From positions 1 to 57,572 of the forward strand of contig JARLGU010000049.1 in the NCBI GenBank assembly GCA_031292625.1: 57,572 nt of DNA, written 5' to 3'. How positions within the stretch are numbered: position 1 is the stretch's first letter; each line of letters begins with the position of its first letter. Positions 14,148-56,895 of this stretch are shown in pieces. Made by a program: the position numbers and the translations under genes. The DNA comes from Capsulimonadaceae bacterium. Its GTDB lineage: Bacteria; Armatimonadota; Armatimonadia; Armatimonadales; Capsulimonadaceae. The notes under the pieces are model-generated. The model was not told the DNA's origin. It saw only the letters and a list, made by a program, of their open reading frames with translations, and searched no databases.

Positions 14148-16310
14148 ATGGCAAAATCGCTTATCATTGTTGAGTCTCCCGCGAAGACCAAGACGCTCAA
14201 AGGATTTCTGGGCAGCGAATACCAGATCGAAGCGTCCATGGGACATATTCGCGACCTCCCCGAGCGCAAGCTCGCGGTCGAGGTCGAGAACGACTTCGCA
14301 CCATCGTACGTCATCATCCCGGAGCGCAAGGAAGTTCTCGCCAAGCTCAAGGCCGCCCTGGCCGGCGTCAGCGACGTCTTCCTTGCTTCTGACCCTGACC
14401 GTGAAGGAGAAGCGATCTCGTGGCACCTTGCTCAGGCGCTCAAGATCGAACATCCCAAGCGCATCCAGTTTAACGAGATCACGCGTGACGCCGTCCGTCA
14501 AGCGCTTGATTCGCCGCGCGAGATCGATATGAACCGCGTGAACGCTCAGCAGGCGCGACGCGTGCTCGACCGGCTGGTCGGCTATGAGATCAGTCCGTTG
14601 CTGTGGCGAAAGGTCAAGAAGGGCCTGAGCGCGGGCCGAGTACAATCGGTCGCAGTTCGCCTCATCACCGATCGCGAGCGCGAGATCGAGGCCTTTAAGG
14701 CTGTCGAATATTGGAGCCTGACCGCATCGCTAACTCCAGACGCGCCAAAGAACAAGTTTGACTCCGCGCTGGTTGAGCATCTGGGCAAGAAAATCGAGCT
14801 GACCAACGAGGAACAGACGAACAAGGTTTTGCGCGATCTAGAAGGCGTCGCGTACAATGTCCTTAAGGTTAAGCGAACAGAAAAGCGCCGCAGCCCCGCG
14901 CCGCCGTTTATCACGTCCACGCTGCAGCAGGAAGCCTCGCGCAAACTCGGTTTCAACGCACGCCGAACAATGCGCGTCGCCCAACAACTTTACGAGGGCG
15001 TCGAAATCCCCGGAGAGGGCAGCGTCGGTTTAATCACCTACATGAGGACCGACTCCAACCGGATCGCCGCGGAAGCTCAGCAGGCCGCGCGCGCGTATAT
15101 CGTCGAGCATTACGGCCGCGAGTTCGTACCCGATGCCGCCAAGCAGTATAAGAAGGGCAAGGACGCACAGGATGCCCATGAGGCCATCCGTCCGACCCAT
15201 GTGGACTGGCATCCTGATCGGGTCACCGCGCACATGACGCCCGAGCAGGCCAACCTGTACCGGCTGATCTGGCAGCGATTCGTCGCCTCTCAGATGATGC
15301 AAGCAGTGTATGACGTCGTTACCGTCACGATTTCCGCCGGAGATTACGGCTTCCGCGCGACGGGTTCGACGATCAAGTTTGAAGGCTTTTTGCGAGTTTA
15401 CAGCGAAGGAAAGGACGAGGTCAAGGTCGAAGACGAAGACCGGCCGCCGCTTCCGCCGTTGACCGATGGGCAGTTGCTGAAATTGCTCGAACTGACGCCG
15501 AAACAGCACTTTACGGAGCCGCCGCCCCGCTTTACGGAAGCGACCTTGGTAAAGGCTCTCGAAGAAAAAGGCATCGGCCGCCCAAGCACGTACGCCACGA
15601 TTATCTCGACGATCCAGGATCGCGGATATGTCGAACTCAAGGAGAAGCGATTCTTCCCGACGGAGCTCGGCTTGGTGGTGACGGACTTGCTCGTCAAGCA
15701 TTTTCCGGAAGTGCTGGATATTACGTTCACCGCCGAGATGGAGTTGCGCCTCGACCATGTCGAGGAGGGCGACGAAGACTGGGTTAAGGTGATGCGCGAG
15801 TTCTACGGTCCATTTCACGCCATCGTCGAGAAGGCTGCCGACGAGATGGAACGCGTTAAGATCGAGCCCAAGGACGCCGGACAAACCTGCCCGAACTGCG
15901 GGCGCCCAATGGTTGTCCGATCGTCGCGCTTCGGCGAATTCGTCGGCTGTTCGGGCTACCCGGAGTGCAAGACGATCATCCGCCCGGAAGCCGCCAAGGT
16001 CGAAGTGCCTTGCCCTAAATGCGGCGGCGAAGTGACACAGAAGAGGTCGCGCAAAGGAACGATTTTTTACGGCTGCGCCAACTACCCGAAATGCGATTTC
16101 GTGGCGTGGGGAAAGCCAATCGGCCGCGATTGCCCGGAGTGCGGGCAACCGCTGATTGAGAATACCTTCCGTGGGCGTCCCAGCGGGATTCGCTGCAGCA
16201 ATAAAGAGTGCACGCACAAGGAATCGAACCGCGCGAAGAAGAGCGGCGACGATGACGCGGCTCCTCCGAACGATGCGGATGCGCCATCGGAAGAACTGGC
16301 AACCGTTTAG
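14148..16310 (+). CDS. topA: DNA topoisomerase I (type IA)
   Basis: 720 residues from the ATG at 14148, which gives the canonical MAKSLIIVESPAKTKTL; an upstream in-frame start at 14067 would add 27 unconserved residues. It relaxes negative supercoils through a 5'-phosphotyrosine intermediate. The Toprim domain has FLASDPDREGEAISWHLA. The catalytic Tyr is residue 298 in GLITYMRTDSNR. The C-terminus has three zinc ribbons of the four-cysteine type: CPNCGRP...CSGYPEC, CPKCGGE...CANYPKC and CPECGQP...CSNKEC. It follows dprA. The 3' end abuts a dispersed repeat that carries a terminator-like hairpin. Confidence 0.97.
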   Translation: MAKSLIIVESPAKTKTLKGFLGSEYQIEASMGHIRDLPERKLAVEVENDFAPSYVIIPERKEVLAKLKAALAGVSDVFLASDPDREGEAISWHLAQALKIEHPKRIQFNEITRDAVRQALDSPREIDMNRVNAQQARRVLDRLVGYEISPLLWRKVKKGLSAGRVQSVAVRLITDREREIEAFKAVEYWSLTASLTPDAPKNKFDSALVEHLGKKIELTNEEQTNKVLRDLEGVAYNVLKVKRTEKRRSPAPPFITSTLQQEASRKLGFNARRTMRVAQQLYEGVEIPGEGSVGLITYMRTDSNRIAAEAQQAARAYIVEHYGREFVPDAAKQYKKGKDAQDAHEAIRPTHVDWHPDRVTAHMTPEQANLYRLIWQRFVASQMMQAVYDVVTVTISAGDYGFRATGSTIKFEGFLRVYSEGKDEVKVEDEDRPPLPPLTDGQLLKLLELTPKQHFTEPPPRFTEATLVKALEEKGIGRPSTYATIISTIQDRGYVELKEKRFFPTELGLVVTDLLVKHFPEVLDITFTAEMELRLDHVEEGDEDWVKVMREFYGPFHAIVEKAADEMERVKIEPKDAGQTCPNCGRPMVVRSSRFGEFVGCSGYPECKTIIRPEAAKVEVPCPKCGGEVTQKRSRKGTIFYGCANYPKCDFVAWGKPIGRDCPECGQPLIENTFRGRPSGIRCSNKECTHKESNRAKKSGDDDAAPPNDADAPSEELATV

Positions 16311-16354
16311 AGCGCGTGTAGAAAATCGAAAGGTCTTGTAAGACGGCTTCTCTG

Positions 16355-16374
16355 CGGCCGCCGTGGCCGTTTTT
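16355..16374 (+). terminator. Terminator-like hairpin in the left arm of repeat copy A
   Basis: CGGCC-GCCGT-GGCCG followed by TTTTT, 45 bases after the topA stop. The related sequence at 23987-24005 (TGGCC-GCGC-GGCCA, then TTTTT) keeps the same form, so the repeat may supply terminators to genes it lands behind. Confidence 0.55.
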
Positions 16375-16424
16375 GAAAAAGGGCCGTCACAGCGGTTTCA
16401 CTGCTTGACTATGTGCGCTGGAAT

Positions 16425-16610
16425 CGGACGATGGCGGCAATAGGCCGTACGCGTGTTGACGAAGCATCGTAAATCACCGCAGTGAACGAGGCGCGGGCAA
16501 GACCGGTCCGTGACCGGCGGACGATGGCGGCAAAGGGCCGTGCGCGTGTTGACGACGCATCGTAAATCACCGCAGTGAACGAGGCGCGGGCAAGACCGGT
16601 CCGTGACCGG
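16425..16610. repeat. 93-bp tandem duplication inside repeat copy A
   Basis: Units 16425-16517 and 16518-16610 are 93 bp each and differ at only about four positions. The other two family copies have a single unit, so this is a recent local duplication. Confidence 0.9.
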
Positions 16611-16709
16611 CGGCACGAGCCGTCCTGAATCTTTCTCGCAATGCGCCAGTTTATTAAGCGCACTCTTAGACGCTCGCCTCCCTCGTCTTAACGGGCGAGG
16701 GACTCAGTT

Positions 16710-33435: not shown

Positions 33436-34821
33436 ATGGACCCAACACCGATCGTAATCATCATACTTGTCGTCTTCGCCGTGATTTTGATCCCGCTGAT
33501 CATTAGCCGGTTCTTAACCACGGTCGACGCCGGGACAATCCGGCTTGTCTCCCGCTTTGGCGGCGCGACTGCCATCTACAAAGGCCCGGGCAAAGCAATC
33601 GAGGTGCCGTTGCTTACCACGAGCACATCGATCCCGTCGAAGGCGATCAACATCGATCTCGACATTGCCGACCAAACCGCGGATGTCGACCGCGCCGGGG
33701 TGCCGAAGCCGATCAAAGTGCGCGTGCTTGCATCGGCCATCGTCTCCGTCGGCGACTCTAATGAGATGATCACCACGGCGGCGAATAAGTTCTTCTCAAA
33801 ACCAGTTCCCGAACAGACGGCCACGCTATCGGACCTGCTTACGTCGACTGGGCGGCGCGCGGTCAACTTGCTCAACCACGACGAGCTTTTTTCATCGAAG
33901 GCGCAGAAGGACATGACCGGCGGATCGGATGTGGTTCGCGCGGCGGCTGCCGTGCCGGTGGAAGAGGACGACCGCCTCGCCCTGATCATCAAGGGGGCCT
34001 GTTCTCGCGAACTGCAAGATCTTGGCCTTGTATTCAACTCGCTCAATATCCGCGAGGTGCAGAGCGAGGTCGCGGAGGCCAGGCGACGGCAGTCGGCAGT
34101 GGAGGCCAAGGCCAACGCCGATATCGTCGCCGCGGACCAGGAGCGGCGCGCACGGGAAGCGCAACTCGCGGCCGAACAGGCAATCAACGACAAACAGAGA
34201 GACCTCGAGCAGCGCAAGGCGGAAAACGCAGCAACGGTCGCCGAAGCGGAAGCCAAGAAGCAGACAGCTCTCGCCGTGCAACGCGAGGCCGAATTGAAGG
34301 CGACGCAAATTGCGCAGGCCAGCGCCGACGCATCCCGAATTCGCATCCAGGCAGAGGCAGCGGCCGAAGCGGAGGCGGTGAAGGTGCGTACGATGGGCGC
34401 CGCGCAGGCCGACGCGATCCGGGCGGTCAACGAGGCAATCAGCCAGGGCGGAGATGCGTATCTGGCGCTCAAACAGATCGAGCTTTTGCCCCTGATCACC
34501 CCGGCCATTGCCGGCGCTCTTGCAAGCGCGCGGCTCGTGAACATCAGCGGCGGCGGCGATAGCCGAGGCGCGGCGGGCGCGGCCACGGATCAGATTACGG
34601 GCGTTATCCAAACACTGCTCGCCACACAACTCGTCTCCGGGCAATTGCGCATCGACAACTCGCCTCCTGCCGCGCCGAATAGCGTCGCCGAGGCCCCAGC
34701 GACCGATCCCGGCAAGCCCGCCGCAATTTCGCCAAGCTGGTCGGGCACAAGTGCGCCGCAAGCCCCTGGCGTCCAGCGTCCGCAACAGCGCCCGCCGCAA
34801 GCGAACCGGGACAGCTCTTAG
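33436..34821 (+). CDS. Flotillin-family (SPFH) protein, YqiK type
   Basis: 461 residues; the ATG has GAAGGA upstream. An N-terminal membrane helix (residues 5-27, IVIIILVVFAVILIPLIIS) precedes the SPFH/band-7 domain (about 28-215). A long Ala/Glu-rich coiled coil follows (about 215-345, EAKANADIVAADQERRAREA and similar), typical of flotillins. The last 60 residues are Pro/Ala/Gln-rich and probably disordered. Flotillins form oligomeric rings on membrane microdomains and affect fluidity and protein assembly. The upstream NfeD-like gene is its usual partner, and the two are almost certainly co-transcribed. Dispersed repeat copy B begins 23 bases after the stop. Confidence 0.93.
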   Translation: MDPTPIVIIILVVFAVILIPLIISRFLTTVDAGTIRLVSRFGGATAIYKGPGKAIEVPLLTTSTSIPSKAINIDLDIADQTADVDRAGVPKPIKVRVLASAIVSVGDSNEMITTAANKFFSKPVPEQTATLSDLLTSTGRRAVNLLNHDELFSSKAQKDMTGGSDVVRAAAAVPVEEDDRLALIIKGACSRELQDLGLVFNSLNIREVQSEVAEARRRQSAVEAKANADIVAADQERRAREAQLAAEQAINDKQRDLEQRKAENAATVAEAEAKKQTALAVQREAELKATQIAQASADASRIRIQAEAAAEAEAVKVRTMGAAQADAIRAVNEAISQGGDAYLALKQIELLPLITPAIAGALASARLVNISGGGDSRGAAGAATDQITGVIQTLLATQLVSGQLRIDNSPPAAPNSVAEAPATDPGKPAAISPSWSGTSAPQAPGVQRPQQRPPQANRDSS

Positions 34822-34844
34822 AGCTGTGTGTAATAAACTGGCGT

Positions 34845-35060
34845 GTTGCGAGAAAGATTCAGGACGGCTCGTGCCGCCGGGGCAATTTTTCGCCCGCGCC
34901 TCGTTCACTGCGGTGTTTTACGTTGCCTCGTCAACACGCGTACGGCCTTTTGCCGCCATCGTTCGACCAGCGCACATCGTGAGCCGTGAAAGCGCTGTGA
35001 CGGCCCATTTTCAAAAACGTCCACGGCGGCGGGGGAGCCGTCCTGAATCTTTCTCGCAAC
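34845..35060. repeat. Dispersed repeat family 1, copy B: 216-bp MITE-like element
   Basis: It is bounded by perfect 25-bp terminal inverted repeats, 34845-34869 and 35036-35060 (left arm begins GTTGCGAGAAAGATTCAGG). The interior is homologous, in inverted orientation, to copies A and C. It has no transposase. It occupies most of the gap between the flotillin gene and a convergent gene at 35134. No flanking target-site duplication was clear. Confidence 0.85.
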
Positions 35061-35133
35061 GCCTAACGCATTCGATCTACGCAACCGCCTGCCAAGGCGA
35101 GCGAACGAATTCCCCACTCACCCGGCCGCGATT

Positions 35134-51600: not shown

Positions 51601-51620
51601 TCAAGTGCTTTCCGCGAGCA

Positions 51621-51838
51621 TGTGTAAAAGACGAAAGGCCATGTACGACGGCTTGGCGGCCGCCGTGACCGTTTTTGGCAAAGGGTCGTCCCAGCTTACG
51701 ACGTGAGCTGGGATCGGACGCTGGCGGCAAAAGGCCGTACGCGCGTCGACGCCGCCTCGCCGATCGACGCCGTGAACGAAACGCAGGCGAAAAAATACCC
51801 CGGCGGCACGGGCCGTCCTGAATCTTTCTCGCAACGCC
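51621..51838. repeat. Dispersed repeat family 1, copy C
   Basis: About 218 bp, same orientation as copy A. It keeps GGCCGCCGTGACCGTTTTTGG (51658-51678), GGCGGCAAAAGGCCGTACGCG and the right end CCGTCCTGAATCTTTCTCGC (51813-51832). The interior between these is more diverged than in A and B. It lies in the gap between the Gfo/Idh and GspF-like genes. Confidence 0.8.
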
Positions 51839-51932
51839 GATTTGTGACACACCGCCTGCGAGGCTCCGAACCTTTTGATAGGTCGTTACGTCCTTCTCAG
51901 GCAACCGAACCGACTTATATGGAGCCAAATGA

Positions 51933-56819: not shown

Positions 56820-56895
<76 letters not shown>

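Follow-up and report, generated by a model that had tools for sequence, protein, structure and literature searches.

Within the IS5 family, members of the IS1031 group use TNA as target and leave a 3-bp repeat (PMC12016507). BrickBuilt, an element of Porphyromonas gingivalis, has GAG ends, an internal minisatellite and terminal inverted repeats (TIRs) that match those of IS5-family elements (PMC4596501); it is a direct precedent for a minisatellite within a MITE. We here describe an element from an Armatimonadota MAG, an assembly of 5.77 Mb in 65 contigs. It is a new family of this known kind, a MITE with a variable internal array, and it appears to be previously undescribed: for this phylum, which has received little study, a search of the literature that combined MITEs with Armatimonadota yielded nothing.

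The locus in question lies at positions 34845-35060 of the window, i.e., of the whole stretch of 57,572 nucleotides that was analysed. A sequence-only reading had presented it as a MITE-like unit of 216 bp with perfect TIRs of 25 bp. Very probably the locus represents a single, rearranged member of a MITE family that is specific to its lineage and inserted at CTNAG-like sites with duplication of TNA. Several features support the assignment to the MITEs: the copy number is high, defined short ends are common to many copies, TNA is duplicated, and nested insertions have related empty sites. The perfect TIRs did not stand; alignment and arm matching identified them as a private rearrangement of this copy. 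The arms as such are real and even slightly longer than had been noticed: 34845-34870 and 35035-35060 are complementary at 100% over 26 bp, with 164 nt between them. Folded as a single strand, this DNA reaches -67.9 kcal/mol, against -46.5 ± 4.0 for shuffled sequences (z = -5.4). That the stretch lacks a transposase gene was correctly seen, as was the recurrence of its interior at two more places, which the window has on its minus strand (16309-16667 and 51616-51852).

The limits of 216 bp were misplaced. Homology to the family runs from 34820/34821 to about 35042, and the real element, when it has a single unit, measures about 255 bp, with no transposase inside. Complete copies are built as L-(U)n-T-R, U being repeated one to six times. 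In the window copy, all parts on the plus strand unless stated otherwise, the left edge is marked by the TTA of a CTTAG at 34818-34820, the target trinucleotide according to the family's duplication statistics. The L arm (34821-34890), delimited by blastn against family parts and by the family alignment, begins with the true left terminus GAGCTGTGTGTAAT and continues with the inner arm GGACGGCTC. A single U unit follows (34892-34959), the 68-bp core of a 93-bp unit that other copies have in tandem, then the T segment (34967-35001) and a truncated R arm (35002-35042), from which the usual end ...CAAGACCTTTCGATTTTTTACACACGCTC is absent. An inverted L-arm fragment, GGCGTTGCGAGAAAGATTCAGGACGGCTC, occupies 35035-35063 on the minus strand; it is this fragment that makes the "perfect TIR". 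Upstream, a 461-aa gene (33436-34821, plus strand) ends in a TAG stop right at the element's left edge; it has no Pfam match, and its relatives in the genome collection are found only among Armatimonadota MAGs, which is the ground for assigning the host to this phylum. The second copy (16310-16665, minus strand) contains two U units, L-U-U-T-R, and has TTA duplicated on its two sides (16307-16309 and 16666-16668). The third (51616-51852, minus strand) has one U unit and degenerate ends. The window also holds a tRNA gene at 56823-56895 on the minus strand (Rfam RF00005).

How the perfect arms arose can be read from the comparison with other copies. Most of these end on the right in GAGCCGTCTTACAAGACCTTTCGATTTTTTACACACGCTC; the window copy switches after GAGCCGTCCT to a reverse-complemented L arm. 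The replaced stretch matches the L arms of a sister subfamily at 29 of 29 nucleotides, the copy's own L arm at only 26. Because of this better match to foreign L arms, the perfect arms are best read, from sequence comparison, as the product of recombination with another copy. Further palindromic or flipped copies exist: the locus L211 has two L arms, and in L223 the interior is inverted relative to the arms (loci, labelled L plus number, are stretches cut around matches in which the copies were examined). In the L223 copy (772-1002) the U-T core runs opposite to the arms, which suggests flipping via recombination between inverted arms. A hybrid is seen in L128 (654-968), which starts as another repeat, the repeat B described below, passes into the element and then, at a GGCCA hairpin common to both, reverts to repeat B.

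The family is large and, within the range searched, confined to its host. A blastn search against the own genome gave at least 75 matches with 40 of 243 candidates scored. Pattern counts allowing up to 3 mismatches found the core 223 times and the right arm 151 times, while reversed controls gave 0; copies outside the window thus abound, and the MAG carries at least 150 of them. As a rough estimate, the family makes up about 1% of the host genome. It had no match in 40 other Armatimonadota genomes, none in 291 genomes of the phylum in a shallower search that scored two candidates per genome, and none in the plasmids, phages and viral contigs searched. The element explains some of the contig ends of the MAG: several contigs, at the loci L197, L198, L199, L200, L201 and L203, end in or beside arrays of the 93-bp unit. 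Array length and copy number are therefore lower bounds, and arrays longer than those seen may have been lost in assembly.

The true ends of the family are GAGYGTGTGTAA...TTACACRCGCTC. The left one lies, in the window copy, 24 bp outside the arm that had first been noticed; the right one is missing there. In an alignment of 47 copies with their flanks, similarity extends to GAGTGTGTGTAAT on the left and to TTACACACGCTC on the right, and it breaks off at CTNAG|GAG and CTC|TNAG, respectively. The inverted ends that the copies have in common comprise about 12 bp, and 78.5% of their pair cells are complementary. Both are bordered by TNA, with C as the preferred outer base on the left and G on the right, which together read CTNAG. 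The flanking triplets are identical in 24 of 63 complete copies, whereas 1000 shuffles gave a mean of 6.7 and a maximum of 15. Nearly all of the identical triplets are TNA. The preference for TNA is already covered in this excess, because left and right flanks were dealt among the same copies. Identity is, however, reached in only about 38% of the copies, and two thirds are within one mismatch. The count of copies, the ends and the target duplications, which the sequence-only reading had proposed to determine, thus turned out in favour of a mobile element.

Nested insertions add to the picture. A second dispersed family of about 205 bp, here called repeat B, has 12-bp ends, GGACTTTCGCTT/AAGCGAAAGTCC, and is found, e.g., in L022 (744-940, minus strand), L030 (1277-1479), L118 (1030-1227), L121 (578-777) and L156 (581-766). 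It looks like another MITE that serves as host to insertions of the first family. Repeat B carries the sequence CATCTTCTC-TTA-CAAAGCG, in short CTC-TTA-CAAAGCG. This is uninterrupted in L022, L128, L198 and L194; in L011, L126, L156, L200 and L209 the element interrupts it or starts at it, and in L011, L126 and L156 the remainder of repeat B, beginning with TTA or TAA, follows on its far side. The uninterrupted copies are related empty sites, paralogous ones as opposed to one locus compared between sister strains. The series of insertions at one position of repeat B could in part be due to amplification of the composite. A variant L arm, ATAGCTCTGCATGGTGTGAAGAGATTTC, is combined with the terminal sequence of the family in L214 (1727-1971), L211 (1650-1720), L009 and L015; in L214 and L211 the interior (CTTGGTCGCTTCGCTCCAGG...) is unrelated and constitutes a third type with common ends.

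The internal array has a period of 93 bp, composed of the 68-bp U core and a 25-bp linker with the hairpin CCGGTC-ACG-GACCGG. Among 141 two-armed copies, 99 have one U, 24 two, 8 three, 8 four, a single one six and a single one none; two or more units are thus present in 41 of the 141. Units are more alike within arrays than between them (identity 0.890 vs 0.862, a difference reached in 0 of 1000 permutations), and therefore the arrays grew at least partly by local duplication. One may go further and see in the hairpin-linked units a selected module of variable copy number that the MITE spreads behind genes, be it as a tunable terminator, a binding array or a translated 31-residue repeat. We consider this improbable.

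The 93-bp unit might be taken as a coding repeat of 31 codons, ARASFTAVIYDASSTRVRPFAAIVRRSRTGL, so that the element would spread a peptide-coding cassette. The unit length is indeed a multiple of three, the frame is open in nearly all units, with a stop in just 2 of 62 array units, and synonymous changes are in excess (0.437 vs 0.300 expected) when copies are treated as independent. The excess shrinks under site-level permutation to a p of about 0.02-0.06 with six frames examined; once each site is counted once, the synonymous signal is without support. Units with stops number 7 against 12 expected and are not clearly depleted, the log-odds of codon usage are negative and thus not gene-like, U belongs to no Pfam family, and the end of the frame differs between copies. 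Coding by U was rejected, U is treated as non-coding here, and we give this explanation next to no credence.

A structured RNA, already named as an alternative by the sequence-only reading, would mean a non-coding RNA family or a transcription terminator dispersed downstream of genes. The very stable fold would suit it, and so would an inner hairpin, CGGCC/GGCCG, of which 4-5 of 47 copies show the form TTGCC/GGCAA, with both sides changed. Yet the covariation term contributes just -0.24 of the -34.98 kcal/mol of the consensus fold, and pairs with double changes are not more numerous than in shuffles, 107 of 500 of which reach their number. By both measures compensatory change is not in evidence, there is no Rfam match, a terminator scan stayed at chance level, and the copies are seen with neighbouring genes in every orientation. 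Nor would it account for the target duplications and the nested insertions; a structured RNA is accordingly very unlikely. The other alternative of that reading, a protein-binding palindromic repeat of the REP/BIME or RIME type that recombination or a REP-associated tyrosine transposase would have spread, would account for the high copy number, the intergenic position, the palindromic arms and the mosaic copies. REPs, however, are single hairpins of 20-40 nt, and the element here is about 255 bp long, its GAG...CTC ends are fixed, and it goes with a TNA duplication of 3 bp. By these features of the sequence, a repeat of this type is very unlikely.

The position of the MITE copies relative to genes is in line with simple tolerance. 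The complete copies that were fetched all lie outside predicted genes. Of 174 ends, 12 have their triplet exactly on the stop of such a gene, and every other distance occurs at two ends at most. In the window, the right end of the second copy falls on the stop codon of topA (16308-16310); at the window copy, TTA (34818-34820) and the G of the terminal GAG yield the TAG stop (34819-34821) of the 461-aa gene. Every TNA triplet is a stop on one strand or makes TAG with the terminal G, and therefore an insertion there keeps the protein unchanged. The TNA duplication thus offers a simple illustration of transposon insertion at a stop codon with no change to the protein. Targeting of stop codons as such was rejected: about 12 such ends among about 100 elements are a small excess, and 4 of 51 non-coding CTNAG sites of the window lie on stops, a number that may include sites used by the element. 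It is enough that selection tolerates such insertions; no special targeting has to be assumed.

The TNA duplication and the terminal GAG fit mobilisation in trans by an enzyme of the IS5/IS1031 type. The mover would be a DDE transposase of the IS5 family (IS1031 type), since lost or missing from the assembly. PF13340 and PF13586 had no match in the host genome; its transposase matches, six to PF01609 and three weak ones to NF033580, are all devoid of the element's ends, and strict matches to the end pattern are copies or relatives of the element and no IS. A full-length transposon or autonomous relative with the same TIRs beside a transposase, which the sequence-only reading had suggested to look for, was not found in the 65-contig MAG, where absence is not final. 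After insertion, the inner units would grow and shrink by local tandem duplication, via slippage or unequal recombination, and recombination between copies would reshuffle arms and interiors, as may have given the palindromic window copy. The insertions that survive would be those in intergenic DNA or on stop codons, the latter because the duplication of TNA leaves the stop codon intact.

How, then, does the family compare with its closest known relatives in kind? Like members of the IS1031 group, e.g., ISLrh, it shows a 3-bp TNA duplication and short TIRs starting with GA; the IS1031 group, however, carries a transposase, and here none was found with the element's ends (PMC12016507). With MITE464/PgRS of P. 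gingivalis it has in common that a MITE with GAG ends contains internal tandem direct repeats, but these measure 41 bp there, and unit sequence, host phylum and copy number also differ (PMC4596501). The likeness to BrickBuilt is manifold: a leader and a tail enclose an internal tandem repeat, the ends start with GAG and resemble IS5-family TIRs, the copies are intergenic and restricted in host range, and no remnant of a transposase is left. BrickBuilt differs in that its repeat has 23 bp and no spacer, in contrast to the 93-bp unit with its 25-bp hairpin linker; its 19 copies have irregular target duplications, whereas the more than 150 copies here go with a TNA duplication; and its candidate parent IS is known (ISPg1/ISPg9), whereas here no parent IS was found (PMC4596501). 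Taken together with BrickBuilt, the family suggests that MITEs holding internal minisatellites arose more than once.
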